A program made the translations under genes and the position numbers. Below the pieces are notes generated by a model, which saw only the letters and a list, made by a program, of their open reading frames with translations, ran no database searches and was not told the DNA's origin. DNA of 64,000 nucleotides from Diplolepis rosae (lineage: Eukaryota > Arthropoda > Insecta > Hymenoptera > Diplolepididae), in the NCBI GenBank assembly GCA_030998225.1, contig JAPYXD010000678.1, positions 372,001 through 436,000 on the forward strand, written 5' to 3'. Positions within the stretch are counted from its first letter, which is position 1; every line of letters begins with the position of its first letter. Below, piece after piece: positions 143 to 14,958 of the stretch.

Positions 143-994
143 TGTTACGTCACAAATACGTAAATACTTACTTTGATCGAAGATTCCTCGTTTTAAGTTA
201 GGATCGAATGATCCTCGCTTAGGGATGAGGATAAGTCAATGAAAGACACAATGATTATAAAAATAATACAAATTGAATTTATTTTACTGGTTAAAATTTC
301 CGGATATACATTCGTTAAGACAATTCTTATATAATGTAGGCACAGGCTGGTTGGTACGTAGGTGAGAAAGAGACAAAGAATAAAGATAGAGAGAGAGAGA
401 GGTTCGGTACCTTTATGATTCGTAAGTTGTGTTGAGGTTTAATCCACACGGCGGTGAGTTGTAAGTACTGGATCCCCACAGGTGTATTCCAAGTGTGTGA
501 GAGAGACGGAGTTATAGGCCGCACAGGTATATTCCGTAAAGGGCGGTGATTCAAATTTACGACACTGTTCGAAGATCTTTACAAGATCTATTCAAGTCTA
601 CGATGACTTTTACGACTCCCGAACTTGGATTTGAAATTGTACCGGTCGAATTTTATTAATCTCAAACTCAGAGATTTTCGAAGTTAAATTGAAATGCTGC
701 ACTGGACTATTGTCGCGAGACCGGTTATAAATCCGAAGGAAAATTTAAGTGTCGAACTAGACGAAGAATTTACTGACTGCTTGCTCTTGGTGTGGGCCTC
801 TTTTATATTTTTCTATACAAATTGACGGTCAGCGAAAATCGTGACGTAGTCATATCTTCTTAGAGGAGAAGGGGCCCTATACTGCTCCCTACTTCCCCTA
901 CTCCCTATTCCCCTTTATCGATTTTCTCATAGATTCCTAACTCAAACCAGCCTGTGTGTATTATATACATTCAAATATGTCGCGGGACGTGACA
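143..994 (-). repeat. 3' LTR of the large gypsy element
   Basis: Read on the minus strand the LTR starts TGTCACGTCCCGCGACATAT and ends GACGTAACA, so it has TG...CA ends with a short imperfect inverted repeat (TGTTACGTC on the plus strand against GGGACGTGACA). It lies directly after a purine-rich tract. Length is about 852 bases. No second LTR copy is in the window because the 5' end of the element is lost, so the borders rest on terminal structure and the PPT, not on an alignment of two LTRs. Internal sequence includes a purine/pyrimidine-rich CT tract near 365-405. Confidence 0.7.
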
Positions 995-1006
995 CCTCCC
1001 CCCTCA
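995..1006 (-). other. Polypurine tract (plus-strand primer site)
   Basis: On the minus strand TGAGGGGGGAGG lies immediately before the LTR start at 994. Position and composition are those expected for the PPT that primes second-strand synthesis in LTR elements. It links the accessory genes upstream to this LTR. Confidence 0.75.
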
Positions 1007-1520
1007 GTTCGAGCGCGGGGGCAAGGCTTCCGCGATCGAATCTTCGGAAGAAGAATACATTAGTTTGTTTTGAAGAAATACATTCAAATACTTTTTTTTT
1101 TTTATTTAATAACAATATGTGAATGATAAATATAACATTCATTTCGACGCTTGTTCTACAATTTGTATTATCTGCTTTTTGTAATTTGATACAATCCAAT
1201 ATTAACATATTTTTTGGATAAAAATTTATATTATCTTAATATTATAATTTTTTGTTATAAATTATTACATAGTTTTTTGAAATAGTTTGAACTTAGCATT
1301 AATATAAGGTTACACATGGTTTTTTTTATATATATATATCTAACTAAATACATCAATATTATTTTTTATACGTGAATTGGGTATCTCATGTTCGTAAATT
1401 ATAAATAACATGCTGTAATATATAAAATATAATTTTTATAATGTAGTAGATTAGTGAAAATATTCATTAAGGGTTATTTTTATATTTTTTATTACGTAAA
1501 GGGTTGCGGCAGTTATGAGC
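1007..1520. other. 3' non-coding region of the gypsy element
   Basis: AT-rich sequence between the last accessory ORF and the PPT. It holds a short GC-rich patch (1,005-1,045) and AT runs, including a TATATA tract near 1,330. No convincing coding frame is seen; the short frames here have low-complexity composition. Confidence 0.5.
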
Positions 1521-1931
1521 TTAATGTCCTCTTTGAAAACACCTTTCACATGAATTAGTCCATTTTTGTAAAGCTTCTTTATTGTTTTTATCACTTATAT
1601 TATAAAATTTAGATTCTGTTATTAAGCATTTTTCTAACTTTTCTTCTAAAAATATATATTTCGTGGAAAGTGTTTCCAAGACTCTAGCTGCTGCATTTTG
1701 TTTTGCTACTTTCTTTTGGGACGCAGGTTCTCCAACACAAGCATAGGTTAAATTATTTTTTTTAATTTCACAAGTTGCCTCGAATGGCGGTAGTTCTTGA
1801 TGTATTCCAAGAGATTTTACTGTGTATTCTGGTATTGAAAAATCATATTCAATACTTATTTCATTAAGTATTTGTACTGCGCTACCCTTTGTCAAATCTC
1901 TTTGTTGCATTGCCATTGTCCTTATCTGCAA
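1521..1931 (-). CDS. dsRNA-binding domain protein with a terminal half zinc knuckle
   Basis: A 136-residue protein. Residues about 17-90 have the layout of a double-stranded RNA-binding domain: first helix with SAVQILNEI, strand 1 with IPEYTV, strand 2/3 with FEATCEI and LTYACVGE, then the basic start of helix 2, ASQKKVAKQNAAARVLETL, which is the most diagnostic part (KKxAKxxAA). The C-terminus reads CERCFQRGH and then stops, which looks like a CCHC knuckle lacking its last Cys. It is the last gene before the 3' LTR. In viruses, stand-alone dsRBD proteins often hide dsRNA from Dicer; such a role here is inference. The frame is intact apart from the possibly early stop. No host gene homologue was recognised. 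Confidence 0.8.
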   Translation of the reverse strand: MQIRTMAMQQRDLTKGSAVQILNEISIEYDFSIPEYTVKSLGIHQELPPFEATCEIKKNNLTYACVGEPASQKKVAKQNAAARVLETLSTKYIFLEEKLEKCLITESKFYNISDKNNKEALQKWTNSCERCFQRGH

Positions 1932-2029
1932 AAGAATTATCTATTTGAGTTGTTAGTGATTTAATTTGATATAAATGGAAATTAGTTATTATTATTGTTA
2001 ATAATTATGTATATGGATTATAAATTATT

Positions 2030-2386
2030 CGTTTTCCGCGTTTGCTAACTCAAAGAGATATTCAGTGCAAAGAAAACATTGGTCTGCTCTGAAACGTATG
2101 AAAAAAATTTGCTCTTCGCAGACAGAACATTTTAATTCGTTAAGATCCGTGGTTACAATGTGGCGGTTAAGGAAAGGTACAGATATTTCTGATTCAAAAA
2201 GGTAATTTTAAATCTGTAACATTCTTTACATATGAATTTTTGATCTAAAGTATTCTGATATATTTCGTTTTCTGGAGAGTAACAACAAAAATGTTTCATA
2301 ATTATTTGATCGATATACGGTTGGTAGTACTGTTCGTCGTTTTCTGGATTTTCGGCTTGAATGGATTCAAAATCTTGCGGCAGCAT
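2030..2386 (-). pseudogene. Small Cys-rich ORF, frame broken near its end
   Basis: An intact 77-codon frame (2,153-2,386) encodes an acidic N-terminus, then HFCCYSPENE and CKECYRF. Just past its stop, another frame (about 2,030-2,160) continues with CSVCEEQ and CFLCTEY. Together the Cys pairs suggest a zinc-binding module of four CxxC-like pairs split by a frameshift near 2,155. I do not recognise the family. It sits between the Cys-rich ORF at 2,508 and the terminal dsRBD gene and belongs to the accessory block. Its function is unknown. Confidence 0.5.
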
Positions 2387-2507
2387 TTTTCTATAACAAA
2401 TTCGTTATTGAGCTTTAAAATACTAACTAGATCCTAACAGTGTTTTGCTTAAAGAGAATTTTCTAGACATATTTGAAATTTTATTTATGACTACAATTTA
2501 TAATATT

Positions 2508-2858
2508 TTATCGAAAAACATTTTCAACTATAACCTCGTTTCCTAATTGAAGTTGCATTTTATTTTTTAAGAATTGCTCAGTACAACCTTTACAGTCGAT
2601 TCCCCTACAGCGTGGCGTTATTAATGCTTCCCTACAACCGTTACAATTCATATTAACGCATTGTATTTTACAAACTGAGTGCCATGAGGTACAGAATTCG
2701 TATTTATTTTGTTCTGTAATTGGTAATTTTTCGAAGAAAAATTGGCAAAATTTCTTTGTTGTTTGCTGACTGTAATAAATGAATAAGGTTGACTCTTCTA
2801 AGTCGAAACAAAAGTATTTATTAAATGTCCATATGTGATTGGATAATCCTGTGGACAT
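2508..2858 (-). CDS. Cys-rich accessory ORF, function unknown
   Basis: A 116-residue frame. The C-terminal half is dense in cysteine with regularly spaced pairs (CTSWHSVC, CVNMNCNGC, CRGIDCKGC), which suggests a structural zinc site or disulfide-rich fold. There is no signal peptide or membrane segment, so zinc binding inside the cell is more likely than a secreted disulfide protein. It lies between envelope 2 and the other small Cys ORF. I do not recognise a family. The preceding region, 2,870-3,250, is AT-rich with no clear gene. Confidence 0.5.
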   Translation of the reverse strand: MSTGLSNHIWTFNKYFCFDLEESTLFIYYSQQTTKKFCQFFFEKLPITEQNKYEFCTSWHSVCKIQCVNMNCNGCREALITPRCRGIDCKGCTEQFLKNKMQLQLGNEVIVENVFR

Positions 2859-3253
2859 ACACCGTCCACAGGTCCTGAGTGGAACACGATCGCTTCTGCC
2901 GCAGTCGGAATCATTCTATAAATTTAAAAAGAAAGGGATCTAAATTTACTTAACTATACCCTTGATTATATGACTTTTATACTTTATCTATTTAATTCGT
3001 GCAAAAGTACCCAAAATTTGATTCCAACAGAAGTTCTACATTATTGAGAGGTATTCTATTTCTCCATTAGAAAAACAATTCTTATATTACAAGACCCTTA
3101 CGAAAACTGTTCTTCTAAAGGTACATTCCCAGTGATCATGCTGTGGTTTTACAGTATAGAAAGAGAGGGATGGATTGTACTTGTACCAGGAAGGTTGAAA
3201 GGATGGAAAATATGGGTCCTTTCCAGTTTATAGATACGTTTGAAAAGAAGTAG

Positions 3254-5035
3254 TTAAAATTTGAATGATAGGTCACTTAGAAGAGGTTTTGTTGATAGGC
3301 TAAGAGGAGTTTTCTGATCTAGTTTAATTTCATTTATATTTTTATTAGTTTTTTTTGAAATTTTTTGAATTTTAATTAGTATTATTAATAGAATAATTAT
3401 TATAAGAAAAGTAACTGTAGTATGTGCTATATATATTTTATGTGCACTAGAATTAAAAATAGATGGGATAATTTTCTGAATATTAGCATATTTTGTGAGT
3501 AGAAAAACATGACTTTCAAAAGTCGATATAAGCATGTCATCTTTTTTATAAAAAAGATGTAACACGTTTTTTAACAAGTGAGGTTCTGTGATCGACATAT
3601 TATATAAGAAGGGAGAAATTATTTCAAGAGAAGTGGTCGATTTACTAAGTGGAATTGAGTTATCCATTATTTTTGGGTAATTTTTAATATTATAGTATGG
3701 AATTGATGAGTCCAAATTACAGTCAGATTCTATTTGTAAAATTCCTATTCCTTGAAGAGTAATAAGGGTTTTGGAATTTTTGGAGCAAGATAAAAAGATT
3801 TGTTTAGGAAGAATAGTTGAATAAAGCCATCCACGGTGTGACAACAGTGGTGTTAAAAAAGGATATTCATTGAAACTTATGAATGTTTTACATTTATACG
3901 GTTGGGATTTTATAAACATTGATGTTTCGCAAATAGGATTATTTTGAGTACTGTATATGGAATGAGGAGGGTGACAAAAATTTTGAAGTCTATTTTGGTG
4001 GCATGAAGCGAGGAAATTTTCATTTGTTGTGAAGTAAGATTCGTTATTTGGAGAAATCGCGATATAAGAAAATTGAGGTTTTATGAATATAGGTATAATA
4101 TAATCAGTGTTGAAGTCAAAATGTATAGGGGTTGAATGTGTTTTAAATATTTGAAATTCTTCAGAAGATGGAATTGGTATGGTCATAGTAAAAATTAAGT
4201 AGTTATTGAAAGTAAAGTATCTTATTTTAGAAAATGGAATGACCATAGAAAAAAGAGACGTTGGAAGGTGAGGATCTTCTTTGTTGGATTTGAAGTCTAG
4301 GAAGGTATCTGGAAGCAGCATGGGGTGCCATAAATTTGTGGCAGCATGGGTCATAGCTTCCGTAAGCTGTGTTAGGAGTGATAGAAAGGATCGGGATACT
4401 TCATGCAAGTCCATCAGCCAATTTGCTGCAAGAATTCTATAAATGTGCAAATTTGGGTAAATTTGTGATTTATGCCAGTCTTTGTACATCGTAACGTTAT
4501 TGAGATTGGATGAACGATTTTTAATTTGTTCAGAAAATGGATTTGGGAGTAGGAACAAATTTTCTTTAGGCCAATAAAGAGAAGTTTTTTGTCTTATTTT
4601 TGATTGTAGAAGAACTTTTTGAATTTGATGTAAAAATGGATCACTATTTTTGGAAATTTTAGTGATGTTATGAGCTTGTCTGGATATAAATGAAATTTCT
4701 CCGAGAAAATAATTTATACGTTCTTTCATAAATTCAAGCTGAGTGTGGTGATTATATATATTACAGTTTTTTGCAATATTTGTGAGTATACAATGTTCAT
4801 AAAGTTTGTGAGATATATCTACTATTTTATATTTTAAGTTTTCTGGTTGCAAAATGTCAAAATAAGAGATAAAATTATAATTTTCGGAAAATAGACGTAT
4901 TTTTGAAATTGGTTCAAAATAAATACCAGATGAGTGATAAAATTGTGAATTGATATAGAAGTTATCTGCTTTAGAAGTGAAAAACAGAATTAGCATCAAG
5001 TATACGCCATAAAGTAGTTGGTATAGGAATTTCAT
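3254..5035 (-). CDS. Second envelope glycoprotein, errantivirus/F-like
   Basis: A 593-residue type I membrane protein. Residues 1-24 form a signal peptide (hydrophobic core LLYGVYLMLILFF), about 533-556 form a membrane anchor (TFLIIIILLIILIKI), and a basic tail of about 37 residues follows. There are multiple NxS/T sites. The opening GIYFEPIS, the DFNTDYIIP block and the LQGIGILQIESDC block resemble the layout of insect errantivirus Env and baculovirus F proteins (assignment from overall pattern, not a search). A clear RxxR furin site followed by a fusion peptide was not found, so maturation is uncertain. The frame is uninterrupted, in contrast to envelope 1. It begins 61 bases after the dsRBD/zinc-knuckle gene. 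Confidence 0.65.
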   Translation of the reverse strand: MKFLYQLLYGVYLMLILFFTSKADNFYINSQFYHSSGIYFEPISKIRLFSENYNFISYFDILQPENLKYKIVDISHKLYEHCILTNIAKNCNIYNHHTQLEFMKERINYFLGEISFISRQAHNITKISKNSDPFLHQIQKVLLQSKIRQKTSLYWPKENLFLLPNPFSEQIKNRSSNLNNVTMYKDWHKSQIYPNLHIYRILAANWLMDLHEVSRSFLSLLTQLTEAMTHAATNLWHPMLLPDTFLDFKSNKEDPHLPTSLFSMVIPFSKIRYFTFNNYLIFTMTIPIPSSEEFQIFKTHSTPIHFDFNTDYIIPIFIKPQFSYIAISPNNESYFTTNENFLASCHQNRLQNFCHPPHSIYSTQNNPICETSMFIKSQPYKCKTFISFNEYPFLTPLLSHRGWLYSTILPKQIFLSCSKNSKTLITLQGIGILQIESDCNLDSSIPYYNIKNYPKIMDNSIPLSKSTTSLEIISPFLYNMSITEPHLLKNVLHLFYKKDDMLISTFESHVFLLTKYANIQKIIPSIFNSSAHKIYIAHTTVTFLIIIILLIILIKIQKISKKTNKNINEIKLDQKTPLSLSTKPLLSDLSFKF

Positions 5036-5095
5036 TATGCTTCTCGAATGGCTGAAAAAGAAAAAAAAGGATTAGTATTGGATAAAATTGGATGT

Positions 5096-5665
5096 TTACA
5101 TATGGTTGGATTTAGGTCTAGAAGTTTTTTGGAAAAAAGGGGAAAATAGATTACTAAATGTTGAGGAGTTTCGTGGTGGAAGTGGAGGGGGAACTTGTGT
5201 TGATTTATCAGCTTTAAAAACATTCCGTCTACGGCACTCTTTTGTAGCATGCATTTGAGTGTTACAATATCTACATGAATTTTTCCATGATACTAATTTC
5301 GGTCTTGGATCAGTTTGAGCACTTTGATTCTTCGTTTTTTTTGTTTCTTTACATTTATTATTATAAAAATCCTCATCGCAAAGATCATAAGATCTTATTA
5401 ATATTTGTAGTAATTTTAAAGCAGCTCTATTTTCGGCTAACTCGCTTGTAGGACCCGCTTGTACAGCAAAATGATCGTTTGTATTAACTTGAGCAAGAAA
5501 AAATGATTTGGTTTTTGAATTTGGATCAGGATAAACGATGTATTGTGGTAACGGTAATCCATATTTTATCGTAAAATTTCTCAAAATTTCCACTTGGTTT
5601 AAAAGTCCCAGAGAGTCTGTTCTACATATCTTTTTTGTAACTTCGCACGTGGGTAGGCTCATCAT
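5096..5665 (-). CDS. dsRBD plus CCHC zinc-knuckle protein
   Basis: A 189-residue protein. Residues about 22-92 follow the dsRBD pattern: helix 1 QVEILRNFTIKYG, strand 1 LPQYIVY, strands with FFLAQV and HFAVQAG, and helix 2 ELAENRAALKLLQIL. The usual KKxAK at the start of helix 2 is replaced by a weaker, more acidic version, so RNA affinity may be altered. A zinc knuckle follows at CRYCNTQMHATKEC (C-x2-C-x4-H-x4-C). The C-terminus has PPPLPPRN, a proline motif of SH3-ligand type. It starts 50 bases after the stop of the tandem dsRBD gene and ends 60 bases before envelope 2. Likely role, by inference: binding viral or host dsRNA. Confidence 0.75.
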   Translation of the reverse strand: MMSLPTCEVTKKICRTDSLGLLNQVEILRNFTIKYGLPLPQYIVYPDPNSKTKSFFLAQVNTNDHFAVQAGPTSELAENRAALKLLQILIRSYDLCDEDFYNNKCKETKKTKNQSAQTDPRPKLVSWKNSCRYCNTQMHATKECRRRNVFKADKSTQVPPPLPPRNSSTFSNLFSPFFQKTSRPKSNHM

Positions 5666-5715
5666 AGTAATGCTCCATTATAGATGATTTCCTGAATTAG
5701 TATGGAATATTTATA

Positions 5716-6448
5716 TTAGAATTTATTGTACTGATTGGGGGGTCTATATCCGCATTTAAAACATTTCTTAAAGCTTTTTCCAGAAAAAGGCGATGTAGTA
5801 GAAATATTATTTCTTTTTATTTTATAAGGATTTATATTTTTAAAACGACTGTTAATATTAGGTTTTGTTATCTGACCACTCGTTGAAGGTTTTGGATCAT
5901 TTATAAGTGATTCTTGGATTGTAACATGCAAATGTTCTAGTGAGTTTATTAAATTTACTTCACATTTTTTATCTTTTTGCAAAAGAGAATTTATCGTTTT
6001 TATAGCTGCGAAATCCATTGCTGTTTTTATTGTGTTTCCAATTCCTATTCGTTTGATATCATTAATAAAACAAATTGCTATGTATGTTGAGTTTTTTGAT
6101 GAAGTGTTTTACTCGTAATACTGTATATTTTGGATATTCGATTTTATTTTGAGTGCAAATTTCGTTTAATTTTTTGAAATTTTTACCAATAGAATTCGGT
6201 TGGACGTTTTGATTTGTTTCCTTTGATTCATTAATTAAAGCATTATATAAATTTTGTGCTACCTTTTGCTTTACGTTTTCTTTATCTTTGCCACTATTCA
6301 TTATTATATAATTGTTATATTGTAAATTAACGTGAAATAGACATTCATTATTATTGGTTTGTTCAATGAGTATCTCATAAATGAGGGGTGGATCTCCTCT
6401 TTGTTGAATAATTTTGTTTAGTAAGGTTGTAAAAGGAACATGCGACAT
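5716..6448 (-). pseudogene. Tandem dsRBD gene, broken by one frameshift
   Basis: Two frames make one gene. The first (6,062-6,448) encodes a complete dsRBD (helix 1 FTTLLNKIIQQRG, strand FHVNLQYNNYIIMNSG, helix 2 VKQKVAQNLYNAL) and the first helix and strand of a second one (LNEICTQN, EYPKYTV). The second frame (5,716-6,018, open further upstream) starts inside the last part of the second dsRBD and continues into a linker ending CFKCGYRPP. A single-base frame change near 6,095-6,110 separates them. In its intact state the gene would encode about 240 residues with two dsRBDs. It starts 12 bases after the stop of envelope 1, so translation coupling, splicing or a subgenomic RNA is needed. Confidence 0.7.
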
Positions 6449-6459
6449 TCTTTAAGATG

Positions 6460-8490
6460 TTAGATTCGGATTGAATAATGTGATCTACTAAGTTCTTCTT
6501 TTAGTTCAGAGTGAGGATAAAGAGTAGTCTTCGTACTATTATGATCTTTACCTGAATTGGTATTTTCGTTAGGAGATGAACTTTTAGTTTCCTCTATAGA
6601 GTTTTGTGGTGCTGAAGCTGTAAGCAGTGGTTGATGGCTCTCAGCGGGAGGTCCAGCAGGTCGGTTGGTACCTAAGTGTAACAAAAGGTTAGTGACCGAA
6701 TCCCAGAAGGCGCCTAGTAAATGGAGAGACCATCCAAATAATCTATGTAATAAATAACCATGAATAATGGTATCTGCTATTAATTTGATCCCTCTAATTA
6801 TTATAATTAATCCAATTAGACCTGCAATAGTAGTACCAAAATTTGTAGAAACTGTCCAAAATCTACCCCAAGCTGATTCAGCAATTTTATCAATTACTTC
6901 TTGGTTAAATAAATTTGTCAATGATATTCCTTGATTAATAGTCGGATGTCCTGTTATTTCTCTAGCTAAAGAATTTAAAATCATTGGTTTTTCTGCTGGG
7001 AACATTATATGATCTCGTAGCTTATCAAGGTCAGATTGAGAATAAATGCCACTTGTTGCTAAGGATGAAGGATTTGTGTATTTCCAGGTTGCTTTTGTGA
7101 GAGGTTTAACTATAGTTGGTGCTATAGATTCGACAGGATTTGGAAGTAATTTGTACCAGGTTTCTCCAAAAAGGTACATTGGTGGAAGGAAAGAATTGCA
7201 ATTTGTTTGGATACCTGATTTTGTTAATATATGAGTTCGTGGAGAAAGGAAAAAGGATTGATTTCCTCTAAATATTGGTAGTTGTAGATAACATTCTTCA
7301 GTTTTGCGATATTTTACTTCAACCCGTATACATTTTACGATATGTACTACTTCTCCTGCAATTACTGACATATATCCTGGGCCATTCATTAAATGATATG
7401 CAAATTCGTCTGGTGATTGGGTTGCTAAGGTTAATGTATTTCTAAAAACTTGCTGTTCAAGTATGCATCGTTGAGTAAGAACATCGTGATAAAGTCTATT
7501 TACTTCAGTGCGTATGTGTCGTTCTACATATATAAATTTAGAGTTGACGTATGTGAAAATGTCCATATTTTGAACTTCTAAATGTTTATTTTCTAAAAAT
7601 GAATTCCCAGGTCTGGTTTCAAAAATTAATAATTTTGGATGTTCAGTTTGTATTAAAACGTAACTGCAAACTGGTTTTCTTGTTTTTTCAGCCAGTACAA
7701 AGGTTATATCTTCAGTCGTTAAAGAATACAAGGTTTCAGAAATGTCTGTCGTGTTGTCATATGTTTTATTTGCTGGTCCTTCATAAATAATTTCATATTT
7801 GTTAAAATTACATACGTCATTAGGTAATGTATCCCAGAATGTTTGTCCATATTCTACGTCTGTACAGAATGTGTCTGAAAGTGTGCATATTATTCCAGAT
7901 CCGAACTGAATTTTAGTTGAATTTAAATGAATAGTCGCGTAATGTTCTTGTAAAGTTATTTTAAATATTGCTTGGACTACGACATTATTCCATGTTCCAT
8001 ATGGGTCAGAAAATTGTGTACCAGTACAGTCTCCATTAGGTGTTACAGAACCTGCTAAAGTAACGCTATGAAATGAAGTTTCGTTTACTTTTAACTTTGA
8101 TATCTGAAGAGAAGGGGTTACTAAAAATGTTCCTATTGTGTTCATTTGATTACATTGATCTCGTGTAACATCATGTATATATTCACTGTGGCCATTTGCT
8201 ACTATGGAACTGTGAGAATGCATACCACAATGAGCGATGGCGCGTCGAATTTCTATTTTGCATTGTATTACTTTTGTATTTGAAAATCCAGTTAATTGTA
8301 AAAGTTGTATATAAGTTCTTTCAACATGTACTTGAGATCGAGGTAGATCACATTCTCCTACCTCTAGTAAAGATAATGTCGTAATATTTGATTAATTTGA
8401 ACCGCAATCGAATCCTATGATGGCGTAGACTGTTGTTATATAGTTGAATTTGCAAATGAGCAGTGCCAAAAGAAAGCCTCGTAATCCCAT
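6460..8490 (-). pseudogene. First envelope glycoprotein, mononegavirus/chuvirus type, with an in-frame stop
   Basis: The frame starts at an ATG at 8,488-8,490 with a hydrophobic signal peptide (LRGFLLALLICKF), meets a TAA at 8,392-8,394 about 32 codons in, and then stays open to 6,460. The 587-codon open part has many conserved-looking cysteines, NxT sites, blocks such as DPYGTWNNVVVQ and EYGQTFW, a membrane segment at about 458-480 (TTIAGLIGLIIIIRG) and a long Ser/Asn-rich cytoplasmic tail. The style is that of the glycoproteins of chuvirus-like negative-strand RNA viruses that insect LTR elements have captured; this is from remembered family features, not a search. It is unrelated in sequence to envelope 2. 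The stop would abolish expression from this ATG unless bypassed by splicing. Confidence 0.65.
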
Positions 8491-8637
8491 CTCTGGAAAA
8501 AGGAGGTTCCAATTAGCAGCTTGCTTTGTAAAAAAACAGAATGAATAAAATTACTTAATAAACAATTTTGTTGTTGCTGTTATATATATATATATTTTTT
8601 TTTTTATGATATTTATTAAGTTTTTTATTTTATGTAC

Positions 8638-8919
8638 CTAGTCTATAATATCCAACATGTCAGCTATGACAATATGATCTGATAGGCGTAAACTGATAAT
8701 CAAGTTTTTGTATGCGTCTGGTCCTCTTGTTTTGATTGTTGAAAAAATGTCTTTTATTGTATCTGGATTGTTTAGGTTTTTGCTCCATGTGGGAATATTA
8801 CAGTCGTCTTGGTTAAAAATTCCAGTTTGAATTAAGTATGGCCAGAGAGCTACCATGTCGATAAAACAGGGAACTATTTCAATGAGATCATCTATGCGTT
8901 TGCGATGAATTTGATCCAT
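8638..8919 (-). CDS. CARD-domain-only protein
   Basis: A complete 93-residue frame that is one six-helix CARD. The C-terminal half carries the family signature TRGPDAYKNLIISLRLSD, followed by a last helix ADMLDI; the N-terminal half has helix 1 MDQIHRKRIDDLIEIV and the L-x2-TGIFNQDD turn. The RGPxAY signature is typical of initiator caspase and Apaf-1 type CARDs. There is no caspase, NTPase or membrane segment. Known CARD-only proteins act by binding other CARDs, either blocking or nucleating apoptosome-like assembly. Its place between integrase and envelope in a retroelement suggests a captured host domain that blunts cell death; this is inference. The frame has no break although its neighbours do. 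Confidence 0.8.
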   Translation of the reverse strand: MDQIHRKRIDDLIEIVPCFIDMVALWPYLIQTGIFNQDDCNIPTWSKNLNNPDTIKDIFSTIKTRGPDAYKNLIISLRLSDHIVIADMLDIID

Positions 8920-8924
8920 TATAT

Positions 8925-9150
8925 CTGGAATAATGTGTTATATCTAAATTTGTTGTATATATTTTTTATATAAAATATATATTTTTATATACATTTTATA
9001 TATGTATATTTTTGTTTTGTTTTATTTTTACCATTTATCGACAAAATAAAATTTCTATATTTTGTTTAAATTGTATATGTATACATATTTTTATAATTAA
9101 AGTAAAGATATTTTGTTAATAATTTTTTTTTTAATCTATTTTTGTACTTG
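8925..9150. other. AT-rich spacer between integrase and CARD gene
   Basis: About 230 bases of ATATAT-rich sequence without a coding frame. It may hold the splice acceptor or promoter for the downstream accessory genes, but no specific site can be supported. Confidence 0.4.
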
Positions 9151-9156
9151 TACGTG

Positions 9157-10257
9157 TTAGCGTTTTAGTCTATTAATGTGAACTACAGTAGGTGTGCCTT
9201 TATAGCTTATTTTGACATTCCCTTTTCCTAAGACTTCCAATATTTCATAAGGCCCTGTATAATGGTTCTCTAGTTTTTTTATTTTACCTCCTTTTAATAA
9301 AAATACGTTGTCTCCAATTGTTACTTCTAAAGGATTAATTTTTTTATCATAATATATTTTCGATTTTTCTTTTGCTGAAATAAGATTCTCTCTTGCTTGT
9401 GTTCGCATTTCGTGTAGTTGAGTTACGAAATTAATTAAATAATCATCATACGTTTGTAATTTTTCTTGTTGTGATAAAGGTTCGCTGGAAGGTTCACGAG
9501 CTAATTTACCAAAAACCAATTCATAGGGTGTGCATTTTGTGCCTTCATGTACACTAGTATTATACGAGAACATTGCTAGTTCAAGCCAATCATCCCATTC
9601 TGAATTTTTTGCAACAAATTGTTTGAGATATTCTCCTAAAACATGATGTGAACGTTCTAATGATCCGTTTGATTGAGGATGAAAAGCTGTGGTACGAAAT
9701 TGTTTAATTTTAAAACGTTTTGCCAATCTTTTTAATAAATTACTTAAAAAATCTCTGCCTTGGTCAGTAAGTACTCCTTTTGGTGATCCAAATATGCAAA
9801 TAAATTTTTTCACAAAAGCATCTGCTATTGTACTAGCTTGGTGATTAGGAAGAGGTATTGCTAAAGAATATTTGGTAAAATTGTCTTGTATCGTTAGAAT
9901 ATATAAGTTACCAGATTTTGTTTCAGGTAGTGGACCAACAATGTCCATTGATATTTTTTCAAAAGCAGTAGTGGGTGTGTCTGTGATTACCATAGGATCT
10001 TTTGTTTTGACTCCGATTAATTTTTTCAGTTGACATTGTAAACAGCCTTGAATATATTTTTGAATGTCTACTTTCATATTTTCCCAAAAAAATTTTTGGC
10101 GAATTCGACTATAAGTTTTTGTGACGCCTTTATGGCCTCCTAATGCTGAAGAATGAGCTTCTTCAATTAAATGAGTTCGTTGTTCTTTTGTTGGATATTG
10201 CGTTATTCCATTGCAAACTATAATTTTTGTAGTTGAATTTGAAAAAAATTGAGTCAA
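9157..10257 (-). CDS. Integrase (C-terminal part of pol)
   Basis: Ty3/gypsy integrase. The zinc-binding HHCC module is at H35, H42, C72 and C75. The DDE core is at D104 (SMDIVGP), D164/165 (LTDQGRDF) and E201 (NGSLERSH). A GPY/F-type module (HYTGPYEI) lies near the end and the last residues are HINRLKR. It inserts element DNA into the chromosome. The frame overlaps the end of the pol frame by about 95 bases in a different frame. The change of frame maps to a run of seven A on the plus strand (10,242-10,248), where both frames encode recognisable FF-containing sequence. That is either a one-base indel in a homopolymer or a programmed shift; integrase is normally in one frame with RT, so an indel is more likely. 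Confidence 0.9.
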   Translation of the reverse strand: MTQFFSNSTTKIIVCNGITQYPTKEQRTHLIEEAHSSALGGHKGVTKTYSRIRQKFFWENMKVDIQKYIQGCLQCQLKKLIGVKTKDPMVITDTPTTAFEKISMDIVGPLPETKSGNLYILTIQDNFTKYSLAIPLPNHQASTIADAFVKKFICIFGSPKGVLTDQGRDFLSNLLKRLAKRFKIKQFRTTAFHPQSNGSLERSHHVLGEYLKQFVAKNSEWDDWLELAMFSYNTSVHEGTKCTPYELVFGKLAREPSSEPLSQQEKLQTYDDYLINFVTQLHEMRTQARENLISAKEKSKIYYDKKINPLEVTIGDNVFLLKGGKIKKLENHYTGPYEILEVLGKGNVKISYKGTPTVVHINRLKR

Positions 10258-13200
10258 AAATTGATTTCACTTCTTCCCAAAGTATATGATTAATTCTGGA
10301 AGTTTTAGAAATACTAATTGACCGTAACTTCAGATTTTGAGATAATTCATGTAATGAGTATATTGATAATTTTATATTATTTAAAGTTTCGGATAAATTG
10401 TCTTTAGTTTCTTCTTCAATTGGAAGTGCAAAATGGTAGTAGTTTCCTTTTTTAATCTCTTTTGCTATCCCTTTTTGTAAATTTTTAAATTTTGGTAAAA
10501 TTGCACGTTTTTCTAAAGTTTTTGATCCGTTGTCGCGAGGAGTTCCATTTGTTGTAACAAAATATGCATAATTATCTTTTCGCATAGTTAATTGATCGCG
10601 ATATTCAACTAAATTTTTCCTTGTTATAATTTTTTCTGTTTGAGCGTTTATAGGAGGAGGTTCTGGGGGTGGACGATTATAATCATCATAATCATTTTCG
10701 TTTTTTCCAGAATTTATTTGAGGTTTTCGGTTTATTTTCAAATTTTCTTTAAAATAAGGCTCTTCAAATTCTTCTTCCAAATTTTCTTCTTGGTTTTCTT
10801 CAAAATTCTCTTCAAAATTTTTCTCAAGATTGTCTTCAAAATTTTCTTTAGAATGCTGTTCGAAATTCTTTTCAAAATCGTCTTCAAGATCATCTTCAAA
10901 ATTCTCTTCCCAATTTTCTTCATGATTTTCTCCATCATTTTCTTCGTGTGAGGTTTCAATGTCGTTGATTTCATCTTCTGAGGTTGAAAAATAATTCTCC
11001 CTTTCTTCGCTTTCAAATTCATTAATATTTTTTCGCTTCTTGGCATTCTTCTTCATTTTGTTTTTTGCTTGAGCTCGTTTCAAATTATCTAAATAATCAG
11101 GATCAGAGTCGGAATCTGATTCTACTTTTGTTCGGCTTCCCTTTTGCATATTTATTTTTGGTAATTCATCTTCATATATTTGTTTTCTTGGTCTACCTCT
11201 CTTTCTTTTTGTTTGAGAGGGAATATTTTTGAAATTTGTAAGTAGATTTTTCCTTGGCCTAGCTCGTGGTTTTTTCACAAGAGGTTTAGAAGAAAAATTT
11301 TCGTCTAATTTTTCTTGAATTTCATTTCCATTCAAATTTTTTGCTTTTTCTTGTTGTATTCTCTTTTGAGCTCTCGTAGTAATAGTTTTCCATGATAAAT
11401 TTTCGTATTTTTTGGAAAACACTGGACTTAATAAAAATATTGTCATAAAAATAAGTCTTGAAGCCATATTTTTGAATAAATTTGTGTATTTTAAAATGTT
11501 CTCACCAATTTCACTAAATGATTCTTCACTAAGGAATTCTTGTAAAAATTCTGGGTTAATATTCAATATTTGGGCTTCTGAAATTTCGCTAAAATGATCT
11601 GCGTCGTCTGGTACGATTCCTGGATTCAAGTTTCTTCGTTTTAAAGGTCTTACCTCATTTTTAGAGTTTTCTTGTTTATTTATTGTAAAAGTTTTCTTGA
11701 AAAACGTTTTTTCTTGAGAAGTCATAAAAGTATCATTGTCATCAACTTGTAAATATTTTGATTTCTCCTTGTTATCATCAATAGGGTTTCTTGAGAGAGC
11801 GTCTGCATTTACATTCATTTTTCCTGCTTTGTAAATTACATCAAAATCAAATTCTGCAAGTTTTAATCTCCAACGTGAAACTCGTGAACACGGGTCTTTA
11901 GAATTTTGAAACCAAACTAGAGGTTTGTGATCAGTCACTAAAGTAAATTTTCTTCCATACAAATAAGGACGAAAATGAGTTACACAAAATATTATAGCAA
12001 GGGCTTCTTTTTCATATGTATCATATTTTTTCTCAGTATCACTTAGACTACGTGAAGCATATGCTATTGGTTTATCTTTACCTATTTTACCTTGTGATAA
12101 AATACCTCCTATTGCAAATCCTGAGGCATCTGTTGTGAGTATAAAGGGTTGAGAAAAATCAGGTCGTTGTAAAAGTGGTTCTTCACATAATTTTGCTTTT
12201 AAAATTTCGAAAGCTGCTTGTTGTTTTTCTGTCCAATTAAAAGGTGTATCTTTTTTCAGAAGTTGATTTAAAGGACTTGCAATTTTTGAAAATCCGTCAA
12301 TAAATCGTCTATAATATCCTGCTAAGCCTAAAAATTGTTTAACATTTTTCTGTGTTTTTGGGACTGGAAAGTTTTTTACAGCTATTATCTTTTTTGGATC
12401 TGGACGTACTCCATTTTTATCAATTATATGACCTAAATATCCTACTTCAGGTCGTAAAAATTCGCATTTGTCTGGTTGTAAATGAAGATTTGCTTTTCTA
12501 AGTCTTTCTGCTAAATTGTTAAATTTAATTTCGTGCTCTTCTAGAGTATTTGCATATATAACTATGTCATCAAGATATACAAAAAGTTCCGTTCCGATTA
12601 ATCCAGTTAATGTTAAATCCATTAATCTTTGAAATGTGGCGGGTGCTGTTTTCAAACCGAAAGGCATTCTATCGAATTCGTAATGACCGTGAGGTGTAGA
12701 AAATGCGGTTTTATGTGAGTCTTTTGGGTTCATTTTTATATGGTAAAAACCGGTAGCTAAATCAAACACTGAAAAATATTTTGCTGATCCTAGAGAATCA
12801 AGTATATCGTTTATATTAGGTAAAGGATACGAATCGCCAATTGTTTTTTCATTTAATTTACGAAAATCAAGAACCATTCTCCATTTTATTTTTCCTTGAG
12901 AATCAGGTTTTTTAGGAACTATCCACACTGGAGTGTTATATGGTGATTGTGAGGGCTTTATTATTTTATTTTTTAATAATTCATCGACTTGTCTTGTTAT
13001 TTCTTCATTGTGAACTGGGGGAAATCTATATTGTCTTGAAAAAATTGGAGCGTCATCTACAGTAGGAATTGAATGTTGTAATACATTAGTAGCTTCAAGT
13101 GGTTCTCCTGGGATTTGAAATCTGTCTGCATTATTTTTAATTAATTTTTCTACATGTTCATATTCATCTTGATTTAAGTGGTCTAATCGAAGAAGTTTTT

Positions 13201-13897
13201 TAATACATTCTACTCTGTCTTCGTCTGTTACATTATAAAATTTGCATGAGTTAATTAGAGAATTGTCAGTTTTTAAAAAGTTATTTATTATTTTACTTGA
13301 TAAATCTTCGTTATTTGTTTTTTTGAAATTAATTAAATTTTCAATTTTTTTATAACATTCTTGTTCTTCAAAGTCTTCTAAATTAACTAATGGGACGGAT
13401 AATGTAATTGGGATTTCATTTGTGTTTGCAAATTTTAAATAAGCTTTTCCTCTGTGATTTTTTACAACTGCGTCACCTACGTAGACGCCATCTTGGATAT
13501 GTAATCGAGGTACATACCCTTCACTCTTTTCTGTATTTTTTATATTAACATAAAATGTTGTAACTGTTCGAGCTGGAATAGTAATCGTATTGGTAGATTT
13601 AAAAGGGTAACAGTGGTTCTCAATTTCTAAGCATTTTGAAGTATAGTTTATATTCACACTATTATCTTGAAAAAATTCTGATCCTAATACTTCATCTTCT
13701 TCTACTGGGACTTCATTGGGAATAATGTTAAATATCGTTGGATAACCAAAAATGTTTATTTTTACCTGTCCTAACGTGTAAAGTGGTAAATCATTAATTC
13801 CTGTAAGTTTCAATACGTTTTGGCTATTTATTGGTACTTCAGGGTTGAGAACCTTTTGTTTAATTAAATTTCGAGCAGCACCAGTATCAATCATCAT
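10163..13897 (-). CDS. Pol: protease, reverse transcriptase, RNase H, with an unusual insert
   Basis: A 1,244-codon frame. The protease active site is IDTGAA at residues 3-8. RT spans about 290-470, with FDLATGFYHI and the catalytic YLDD at 441-444. RNase H spans about 585-700 (TTDASGFAIGG, TDHKPL, NADALSRNP). Residues about 705-1080 are not usual for gypsy elements: a hydrophobic, signal-like stretch (LIFMTIFLLSPVF), AT-hook-like basic motifs (RARPRK, KRKRGRPRKQ) and an acidic repeat built on EENFEDD-like units. The linker to integrase follows. The frame is open upstream of the first ATG and overlaps the gag end in the -1 register near 14,017-14,035, which fits -1 frameshifting from gag. Confidence 0.9.
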   Translation of the reverse strand: MMIDTGAARNLIKQKVLNPEVPINSQNVLKLTGINDLPLYTLGQVKINIFGYPTIFNIIPNEVPVEEDEVLGSEFFQDNSVNINYTSKCLEIENHCYPFKSTNTITIPARTVTTFYVNIKNTEKSEGYVPRLHIQDGVYVGDAVVKNHRGKAYLKFANTNEIPITLSVPLVNLEDFEEQECYKKIENLINFKKTNNEDLSSKIINNFLKTDNSLINSCKFYNVTDEDRVECIKKLLRLDHLNQDEYEHVEKLIKNNADRFQIPGEPLEATNVLQHSIPTVDDAPIFSRQYRFPPVHNEEITRQVDELLKNKIIKPSQSPYNTPVWIVPKKPDSQGKIKWRMVLDFRKLNEKTIGDSYPLPNINDILDSLGSAKYFSVFDLATGFYHIKMNPKDSHKTAFSTPHGHYEFDRMPFGLKTAPATFQRLMDLTLTGLIGTELFVYLDDIVIYANTLEEHEIKFNNLAERLRKANLHLQPDKCEFLRPEVGYLGHIIDKNGVRPDPKKIIAVKNFPVPKTQKNVKQFLGLAGYYRRFIDGFSKIASPLNQLLKKDTPFNWTEKQQAAFEILKAKLCEEPLLQRPDFSQPFILTTDASGFAIGGILSQGKIGKDKPIAYASRSLSDTEKKYDTYEKEALAIIFCVTHFRPYLYGRKFTLVTDHKPLVWFQNSKDPCSRVSRWRLKLAEFDFDVIYKAGKMNVNADALSRNPIDDNKEKSKYLQVDDNDTFMTSQEKTFFKKTFTINKQENSKNEVRPLKRRNLNPGIVPDDADHFSEISEAQILNINPEFLQEFLSEESFSEIGENILKYTNLFKNMASRLIFMTIFLLSPVFSKKYENLSWKTITTRAQKRIQQEKAKNLNGNEIQEKLDENFSSKPLVKKPRARPRKNLLTNFKNIPSQTKRKRGRPRKQIYEDELPKINMQKGSRTKVESDSDSDPDYLDNLKRAQAKNKMKKNAKKRKNINEFESEERENYFSTSEDEINDIETSHEENDGENHEENWEENFEDDLEDDFEKNFEQHSKENFEDNLEKNFEENFEENQEENLEEEFEEPYFKENLKINRKPQINSGKNENDYDDYNRPPPEPPPINAQTEKIITRKNLVEYRDQLTMRKDNYAYFVTTNGTPRDNGSKTLEKRAILPKFKNLQKGIAKEIKKGNYYHFALPIEEETKDNLSETLNNIKLSIYSLHELSQNLKLRSISISKTSRINHILWEEVKSIFDSIFFKFNYKNYSLQWNNAISNKRTTNSFN

Positions 13898-14016
13898 GTG
13901 TGTTGGATTTTTTAGACCTTCCGTTGATATTATAATTGATGGATTTGAAGTGGACTTTGAAATATTTATTGTTGTTGTTGTATGATCGTTAGAAGTGGAT
14001 GCCAGTGGTTCTCGAT

Positions 14017-14958
14017 TTATGCTTTCCTCAGTGCACCCGTGCTGGGGAGAGCTTTGGAGTTTTCCTGATTAGCTGTTTGTGATTGGTTATTTCTAGGAAA
14101 ATTATTATTATTGTTGTATCTTTGTTGTAAAAAATTATTATTATTGTTTCTATAATTGTTATTACTATTTTGTAAAAAATGATTGTTGTTATTATTAAAA
14201 TTATAATTTTTATTTCTTAAAAAATTGTTATTTGGAAAATTATTGTAATTGTTTTTTGCAAAATTATTATTATTATTACTTCTTTGACCATTGAAATTAC
14301 TATATCCTTGTTGGTTAGGATGCAAAAATTTTCTTTGTTTATTGTTAAGAACTGCATCTTGAGCTTTACTTAAATGAAAACATTTTTCAGTTGTGTGACC
14401 TGGTTTTTTACAAATTAAACAAATAGTTTTATTTTCAAGTGCTACGGTGAATCGGGTGGTTTTGTTATTTTTATTATTATTAGTTGATTCTTCGGTTTTT
14501 AAATAATCAGTATTTTTATTTCTTCGCAGTGCAGAACTTGCAGCCAATCTTCGTTCTATGTCTATTGTATCATTAATTACTTCCTTAAATGTGTCCTTTT
14601 CTTCCACACGAATTTCTAACTCAGGACGCAAACCGCGTATAAAACATTGAATTACATCTCTTTCTAAATTTTGTTTAAAAGCATTATCTACCTGACCGTC
14701 ATTATTAAGTCTGTGAGCACCTTCTATTCTATCAGCAATTTCTTTAATTCTAGCAGCATAGGAAAGGACATTTTCTCTTTCCCACATAAATGTATTACCT
14801 AATTCTCCCTGCAATTGATATACGCTTTTCGCAGGGGCATATACTCTTTTCAATTTTTCTATTAATTCCTCTATTGTTGCATACGTTGACCCAAAAATAC
14901 ATTTTCGTGCCTCACCAGACAATTTACCTCTCAATAGACGTGCAAGATGGACAATCAA
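14017..14958 (-). CDS. Gag, N-terminus missing
   Basis: 313 codons of Gag. The capsid-like part contains VHLARLLRGKLSGEARK and FIRGLRPELEIRV. One CCHC zinc knuckle (CLICKKPGHTTEKC) follows, and then about 90 residues rich in Asn encoded by AAT/AAC runs (14,100-14,290). There is no ATG at the start: the frame opens just after a stop at about 14,960, where the sequence changes to the neighbouring island, so the N-terminus and the 5' LTR are lost. Gag packages the element RNA. Pol begins in the -1 frame before the gag stop. Confidence 0.85.
   Translation of the reverse strand: MIVHLARLLRGKLSGEARKCIFGSTYATIEELIEKLKRVYAPAKSVYQLQGELGNTFMWERENVLSYAARIKEIADRIEGAHRLNNDGQVDNAFKQNLERDVIQCFIRGLRPELEIRVEEKDTFKEVINDTIDIERRLAASSALRRNKNTDYLKTEESTNNNKNNKTTRFTVALENKTICLICKKPGHTTEKCFHLSKAQDAVLNNKQRKFLHPNQQGYSNFNGQRSNNNNNFAKNNYNNFPNNNFLRNKNYNFNNNNNHFLQNSNNNYRNNNNNFLQQRYNNNNNFPRNNQSQTANQENSKALPSTGALRKA

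Follow-up and report, generated by a model that had tools for sequence, protein, structure and literature searches.

Why does an insect retroelement carry a stand-alone CARD gene, and from where was it acquired? This question is raised by a 64,000-nucleotide stretch of the hymenopteran Diplolepis rosae (contig JAPYXD010000678.1, positions 372,001 to 436,000; the window), in which a single long terminal repeat (LTR) element occupies positions 143-14948 on the minus strand. A preliminary description had pointed to a clean 93-codon open reading frame (ORF) between the integrase and envelope 1 of this element, and we found the frame there, on the minus strand; the plus-strand frame at 8638-8919 contains 6 stops. 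We consider it rather probable that an envelope-bearing Ty3/gypsy-type element took this stand-alone CARD from a Dronc-type initiator caspase of an insect, probably via a spliced RNA, that selection has kept it, and that it would work as a Dronc mimic. This reading of capture and retention draws on the CARD sequence, its predicted fold, its kinship with Dronc, the missing host intron, element-wide synteny and purifying selection. CARD-only proteins are already known from large DNA viruses; judged by its sequence, the present case would place one, with a putative function, in a reverse-transcribing insect element.

CARD identity and linkage to the element

The length of the ORF is by itself only mildly unusual, as 1.3% or 3.1% of 2000 region-sized first-order Markov sequences, depending on the model, contain an ATG frame of 93 codons. 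A chance frame is dismissed because of the copy family, with its identical copies, few stops and gapless relatives. Among the best 150 of 1166 candidate copies in the same genome, ranked by CARD similarity, 63 (the window among them) are identical across all 93 residues and 141 are stop-free. Six representatives at 46-62% identity align without gaps across all 93 positions; seven representatives share 25 of 93 identical columns, compared with 2.1 under a null that ignores kinship, and with three lineages the count is 38 against a null of 15.4.

On its own, the window protein scores 19.5 bits against the Pfam CARD profile PF00619, below the cut-off of 23.9. Its relative P0029 (25.5 bits) and the divergent element copies L113, L120 and L121 (30.9, 30.2 and 29.4 bits) lie above it, and a CARD match at E<=1 was obtained for 25 of 32 near relatives and 27 of 30 members of a wider set. 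The TRGPDAY signature remarked on earlier occupies residues 64-70. We predict with confidence that the 93-residue protein adopts a CARD fold: the model has helices at residues 3-13, 16-19, 22-31, 42-47, 52-62, 69-79 and 83-90 and forms a six-helix bundle with a kinked first helix. A model made from close relatives alone was poor, and its fold search uninformative. In the predicted structure a single CARD makes up the whole protein, with helices across residues 3-90, as expected of a CARD-only protein. Profile matches, fold and presence in other copies had been named as the places where this identification might fail, and none went against it, although the window protein by itself stays under the Pfam cut-off.

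To which type of CARD does it belong? When the wider-family profile was compared with the PDB, CARDs of initiator caspases made up the ten best of 17 rows, with NLRC4, RAIDD and NOD1 ranked below them and no row for Apaf-1. By sequence, the CARD thus appears to be of the initiator-caspase type (Dronc, CED-3, caspase-9) over other solved CARDs; the predicted fold by itself does not tell Dronc-type from Apaf-1-type. The window protein alone retrieved MAVS CARD rows (E 0.66-0.87) and a designed repeat protein, but no caspase. Profile matches to designed repeat proteins, and a weak one to influenza PB2, do not recur among the 17 rows obtained with the wider profile, and we read them as chance. Scans of IMG/VR with the CARD and with the integrase returned no relative.

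The gene is carried by the element, as the preliminary description held. Integrase, CARD and envelope 1 occur together at 8 of 8 loci (the window being one), with the CARD between the other two. At 40 loci picked by integrase, CARD similarity lies beside the integrase in 37 and envelope 1 similarity is present in 38; the CARD is unbroken over 93 codons in 25, aligns over 93 codons with stops in 4 (two frame-shifted), and is truncated, shifted or absent in 11. The same slot holds a CARD in three further subfamilies of this genome (L113-L117 with L119; L120; L121), which account for 8 of the 9 genome matches above the Pfam CARD cut-off. As a separate observation, GC at third codon positions is 0.35 in 8638-8919, whereas nine of the element's other ORFs have 0.17-0.24 and the cysteine-rich ORF has 0.31.

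Probable host source of the CARD

Caspase domains occur at four places in the genome (8 matches). The first stretches searched upstream of them contained no CARD; the next stretches did show one, encoded by two frames upstream of the caspase domain on contig C95. A 159-base intron with borders GTGAGT and TTTTTACAG would part these frames, although alternative borders giving shorter products are possible. The spliced host CARD scores 29.6 bits against Pfam, over the cut-off, and aligns without gaps to the window protein, with 47 of 92 residues identical (34 to 48 of 92 across ten element CARDs). One piece of the C95 caspase best matches caspase-2, -4 and -9; for the other, the best E-values belong to effector caspases over 35 residues, and Dronc, matched over 63 residues, ranks fifth. 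We call this caspase Dronc-like because of the CARD and the caspase-piece matches together.

The element CARD is intronless, lacking the host intron. Initiator caspases with a CARD prodomain occur in nematodes, flies and vertebrates, making transfer from host to element the simplest direction. Of the two sources suggested earlier for a captured host CARD, the initiator caspase agrees with the same-genome caspase and the PDB ranking, whereas an Apaf-1 type is not favoured by sequence. A comparison of one with several captures favoured neither (p-AU 0.512), and trees with CED-3 and caspase-9, which have long branches, did not settle the origin of the element CARDs.

Two further observations concern host CARDs. 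Three short proteins (P0116-P0118), perhaps Dronc exons of other insects, match the second exon of the host Dronc at 25-28 of 37 residues and the window CARD at 23-25 of 37. A further host CARD (L118, G000:C284:24095373-24095615; 29.8 bits) has adjoining frames that look unlike the element genes.

Selection and possible roles

The CARD ORF is kept under purifying selection. Between the window and subfamily B (L044-L062), the CARD shows roughly 10 synonymous differences and 11 non-synonymous ones (synonymous divergence, dS, 0.21; non-synonymous divergence, dN, 0.05; binomial P 0.015, or 0.007-0.042 with neighbouring counts); for the integrase, dS is 0.23 and dN 0.02. Ranking copies by CARD similarity favours low dN, a bias from which the 40 integrase-picked loci are free. 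At these loci, 16 distinct intact CARDs gave a pooled pN/pS of 0.29 against the window and 0.35 among themselves. Comparison with more distant subfamilies gave omega 0.12-0.22 at dS 1.45-2.41, near saturation, and dS against L120 is saturated. For some of the closest copies (L010-L012, L018 and L019), which differ by 4-5 changes, the ratios are 0.74-1.00, a pattern that post-insertion decay would produce. As a control on this reading, an envelope 1 piece was taken from these 40 loci: its pooled pN/pS is 1.00 with the window as reference and 0.45 when the copies are compared with one another; the window's own envelope 1 seems to have drifted.

Relative to the window, subfamily B has a dS of 0.23-0.25 in the integrase (14 copies) and about 0.2 in the CARD, but of 0-0.03 over the opening 100 codons of the envelope 1 body. 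This jump between the CARD and the start of envelope 1 indicates a recombination border near 8520, and the mosaic with subfamily B is not peculiar to the CARD.

In the mechanism that we propose, the CARD ORF would be translated and its product would mimic the Dronc prodomain in a dominant manner, either by occupying the CARD of Dark, the apoptosome adaptor of the host, or by pairing with Dronc's own CARD. Dronc would then be neither recruited nor activated, and element-producing cells would survive. More weakly, the CARD may be one arm of a counter-defence set with the three double-stranded RNA (dsRNA) binding ORFs of the element, which might blunt RNA interference (RNAi). We offer only tentatively, as somewhat doubtful, the broader idea of a dedicated set combining a Dronc-prodomain mimic, three dsRNA-binding proteins directed against RNAi and two unrelated envelopes, with the CARD mimic in an evolutionary contest with the host apoptosome. 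If the mimic reading is true, caspase-controlled cell death would join PIWI-interacting RNA (piRNA) and RNAi among the barriers that insect endogenous retroviruses face, and it would be a testable one, with one small protein and two obvious partners, Dronc and Dark. The abundance of the element and its recent copies are, in addition, a resource for dating the contest between host and virus.

The captured CARD could instead nucleate Dronc, with sub-lethal caspase activity exploited for release or germ-cell access. Nucleation is known for CARDs as well as capping, and fold and kinship are silent on direction, but we think this outcome unlikely: a lethal gene in so many copies would be unexpected unless expression were tight, and in the nearest precedent found, the 91-residue CARD of grouper iridovirus, which PMC4457926 likens to human ICEBERG, the effect is inhibitory, with reduced caspase-8 and -9 activity. 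Slightly less likely still is a part in particle structure or replication, through CARD-CARD assembly, packaging or localisation, with host cell death uninvolved; a small gene between pol and env, under purifying selection like that of integrase, would suit such a part, whereas the closeness of the C-terminal half to the host caspase is consistent with a host-like surface having been kept.

Against the mimic reading stand two more alternatives, both of which we regard as highly improbable. One takes the ORF for a chance frame or a dead, functionless relic. Random sequences do yield its length at the low rates given above, and among the 40 copies picked by integrase, 15 lack an unbroken stretch of 93 codons, but the gapless relatives, omega of 0.12-0.25 and the same slot in further subfamilies speak against it. 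Chance and late acquisition had both been entertained earlier to explain the open frame; chance falls on these same points and late acquisition is not supported, since divergent subfamilies have the gene in one shared slot. The other alternative sees a CARD gene of the host, or a pseudogene of Dronc, lying beside the element by accident, or element copies co-opted by the host. Some copies may now be host genes: in the gall wasp Belonocnema kinseyi, the annotated protein LOC117169146 X5/X6 (P0090, P0091) carries this CARD, and is either a co-opted copy or an ORF of the element that was taken for a gene in annotation. Accident or co-option nevertheless fits poorly with the position of the CARD at all eight loci and beside 37 of 40 integrases, at many genomic places.

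Layout of the element and related systems

The element is an LTR retroelement with an envelope, in which LTRs, gag, pol with integrase, and env are all present (gag and reverse transcriptase (RT) assigned by eye; Table 1). Its putative assignment to the Ty3/gypsy type is based on domain order.

Table 1. Features of the element in the window, in the direction of its minus-strand reading.
Feature	Positions	Strand	Basis or remark
gag, 5' side cut off	14017..14948	-	by eye and position; Pfam: weak zinc-knuckle row only
protease-RT-RNase H part of pol and charged linker	10163..13897	-	domains assigned by eye
integrase frame	9157..10257	-	Pfam Integrase_H2C2, rve; frame change separates rest of pol in window copy
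CARD-only ORF, 93 residues	8638..8919	-	ATG at 8919; ORF list, Pfam, predicted structure
envelope 1 signal-peptide stretch	8395..8490	-	by eye; in-frame stop before envelope 1 body in window copy
envelope 1 body, chuvirus/Monjiviricetes fusion glycoprotein type	6460..8391	-	PF24664 E=4.8e-210 (from ATG at 8223)
dsRNA-binding ORF a	6062..6448	-	dsrm 27.7 bits, cut-off 23
CxxC-motif ORF	5716..6108	-	ORF list and comparison with other copies
dsRNA-binding ORF b, weak	5096..5665	-	dsrm 18.3 bits, under cut-off
envelope 2, baculovirus F type, 593 residues	3254..5035	-	Baculo_F E=1.7e-16; frame open
cysteine-rich ORF	2508..2858	-	present in 4/4 other copies
short frame	2156..2404	-	present in 4/4 other copies
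dsRNA-binding ORF c	1521..1931	-	dsrm 31.2 bits, cut-off 23
3' LTR, ~853 bp	143..995	-	matches LTRs of three other copies

The neighbours of the CARD had been described as broken. This applies to gag, pol (two frames) and envelope 1, but not to envelope 2, which is open over all its codons. Repeat and BLAST searches found no LTR pair or 5' LTR in the window, which we attribute to 5' truncation, seen against other copies; when four other copies are aligned with it, their homology to the window stops at 14948, and in some other copies the integrase region lies within a single open pol frame of up to 1652 residues. In three other copies both LTRs match the 3' LTR of the window (the 3' LTRs of two being partial as fetched). 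Their LTR pairs are 99.06% identical over 854 bp (C182), 99.4% over 521 bp (C31) and 96.9% over 553 bp (C107; the last two partial as fetched), and by coordinates these copies span 17.7, 17.3 and 17.4 kb, respectively, indicating that the family is giant and was recently active, and that the window contains a copy of it truncated at the 5' side. The frames from ORF a to ORF c occur in the same order in 4 of 4 other copies, with DNA pieces 91-98% identical to the window.

Stand-alone CARDs of about 90 residues are likewise found in the genomes of iridoviruses, although those are large DNA viruses of fish, whereas here a Dronc-type CARD sits in a reverse-transcribing insect element. The best viral structural matches were CARD proteins of Lymphocystis disease virus 3 and cod iridovirus, with E-values that are not significant (0.25 and 0.65; probability 0.99 and 0.95). 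The Dronc prodomain (Drosophila, PDB 3j9k and 8y6q; the Dronc-like caspase described above) is also a CARD, but in the host it precedes a protease domain and an intron interrupts it. Errantiviruses such as gypsy and ZAM are Ty3/gypsy elements with one envelope, of baculovirus F type, and about half the size of the present element; we know of no CARD or dsRNA-binding domain in them. The planarian Burro elements, giant and gypsy-like with env homology, resemble it in carrying apoptosis-linked domains, but these (BIR and BCL2-like) are described as segments of a large polyprotein, in another phylum, and the word CARD is absent from the main text of that paper (PMC6431247). The mosquito element Anakin also has a chuvirus glycoprotein but belongs to Bel/Pao, as told in PMC10084718, an arthropod survey that reports no clear evidence of gypsy elements capturing a glycoprotein of the chuvirus order; in copies of the present gypsy-type element, integrase and a PF24664-type envelope recur together. 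Troyka was dropped as a comparison, being without an envelope according to PMC12440569, and a sea cucumber paper, whose single mention concerns NLR-type genes, offers no parallel. Among the literature matches listed, from a coverage mostly outside subscription papers, none described a CARD or host caspase prodomain in an insect retroelement.

Three features of the element deserve mention in their own right. It combines two unrelated envelopes, of baculovirus F and chuvirus type, envelope 2 being present in 4 of 4 other copies and envelope 1 at the 38 of 40 loci noted above. It also has three ORFs with dsRNA-binding motifs, which are candidate RNAi suppressors; ORFs b and c are recognisably alike, with 25-28% identity between b and the ORF c of other copies. 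Finally, a 12-base repeat array in the pol frame (10732-10980) encodes an acidic stretch beside AT-hook-like motifs, as identified by eye.
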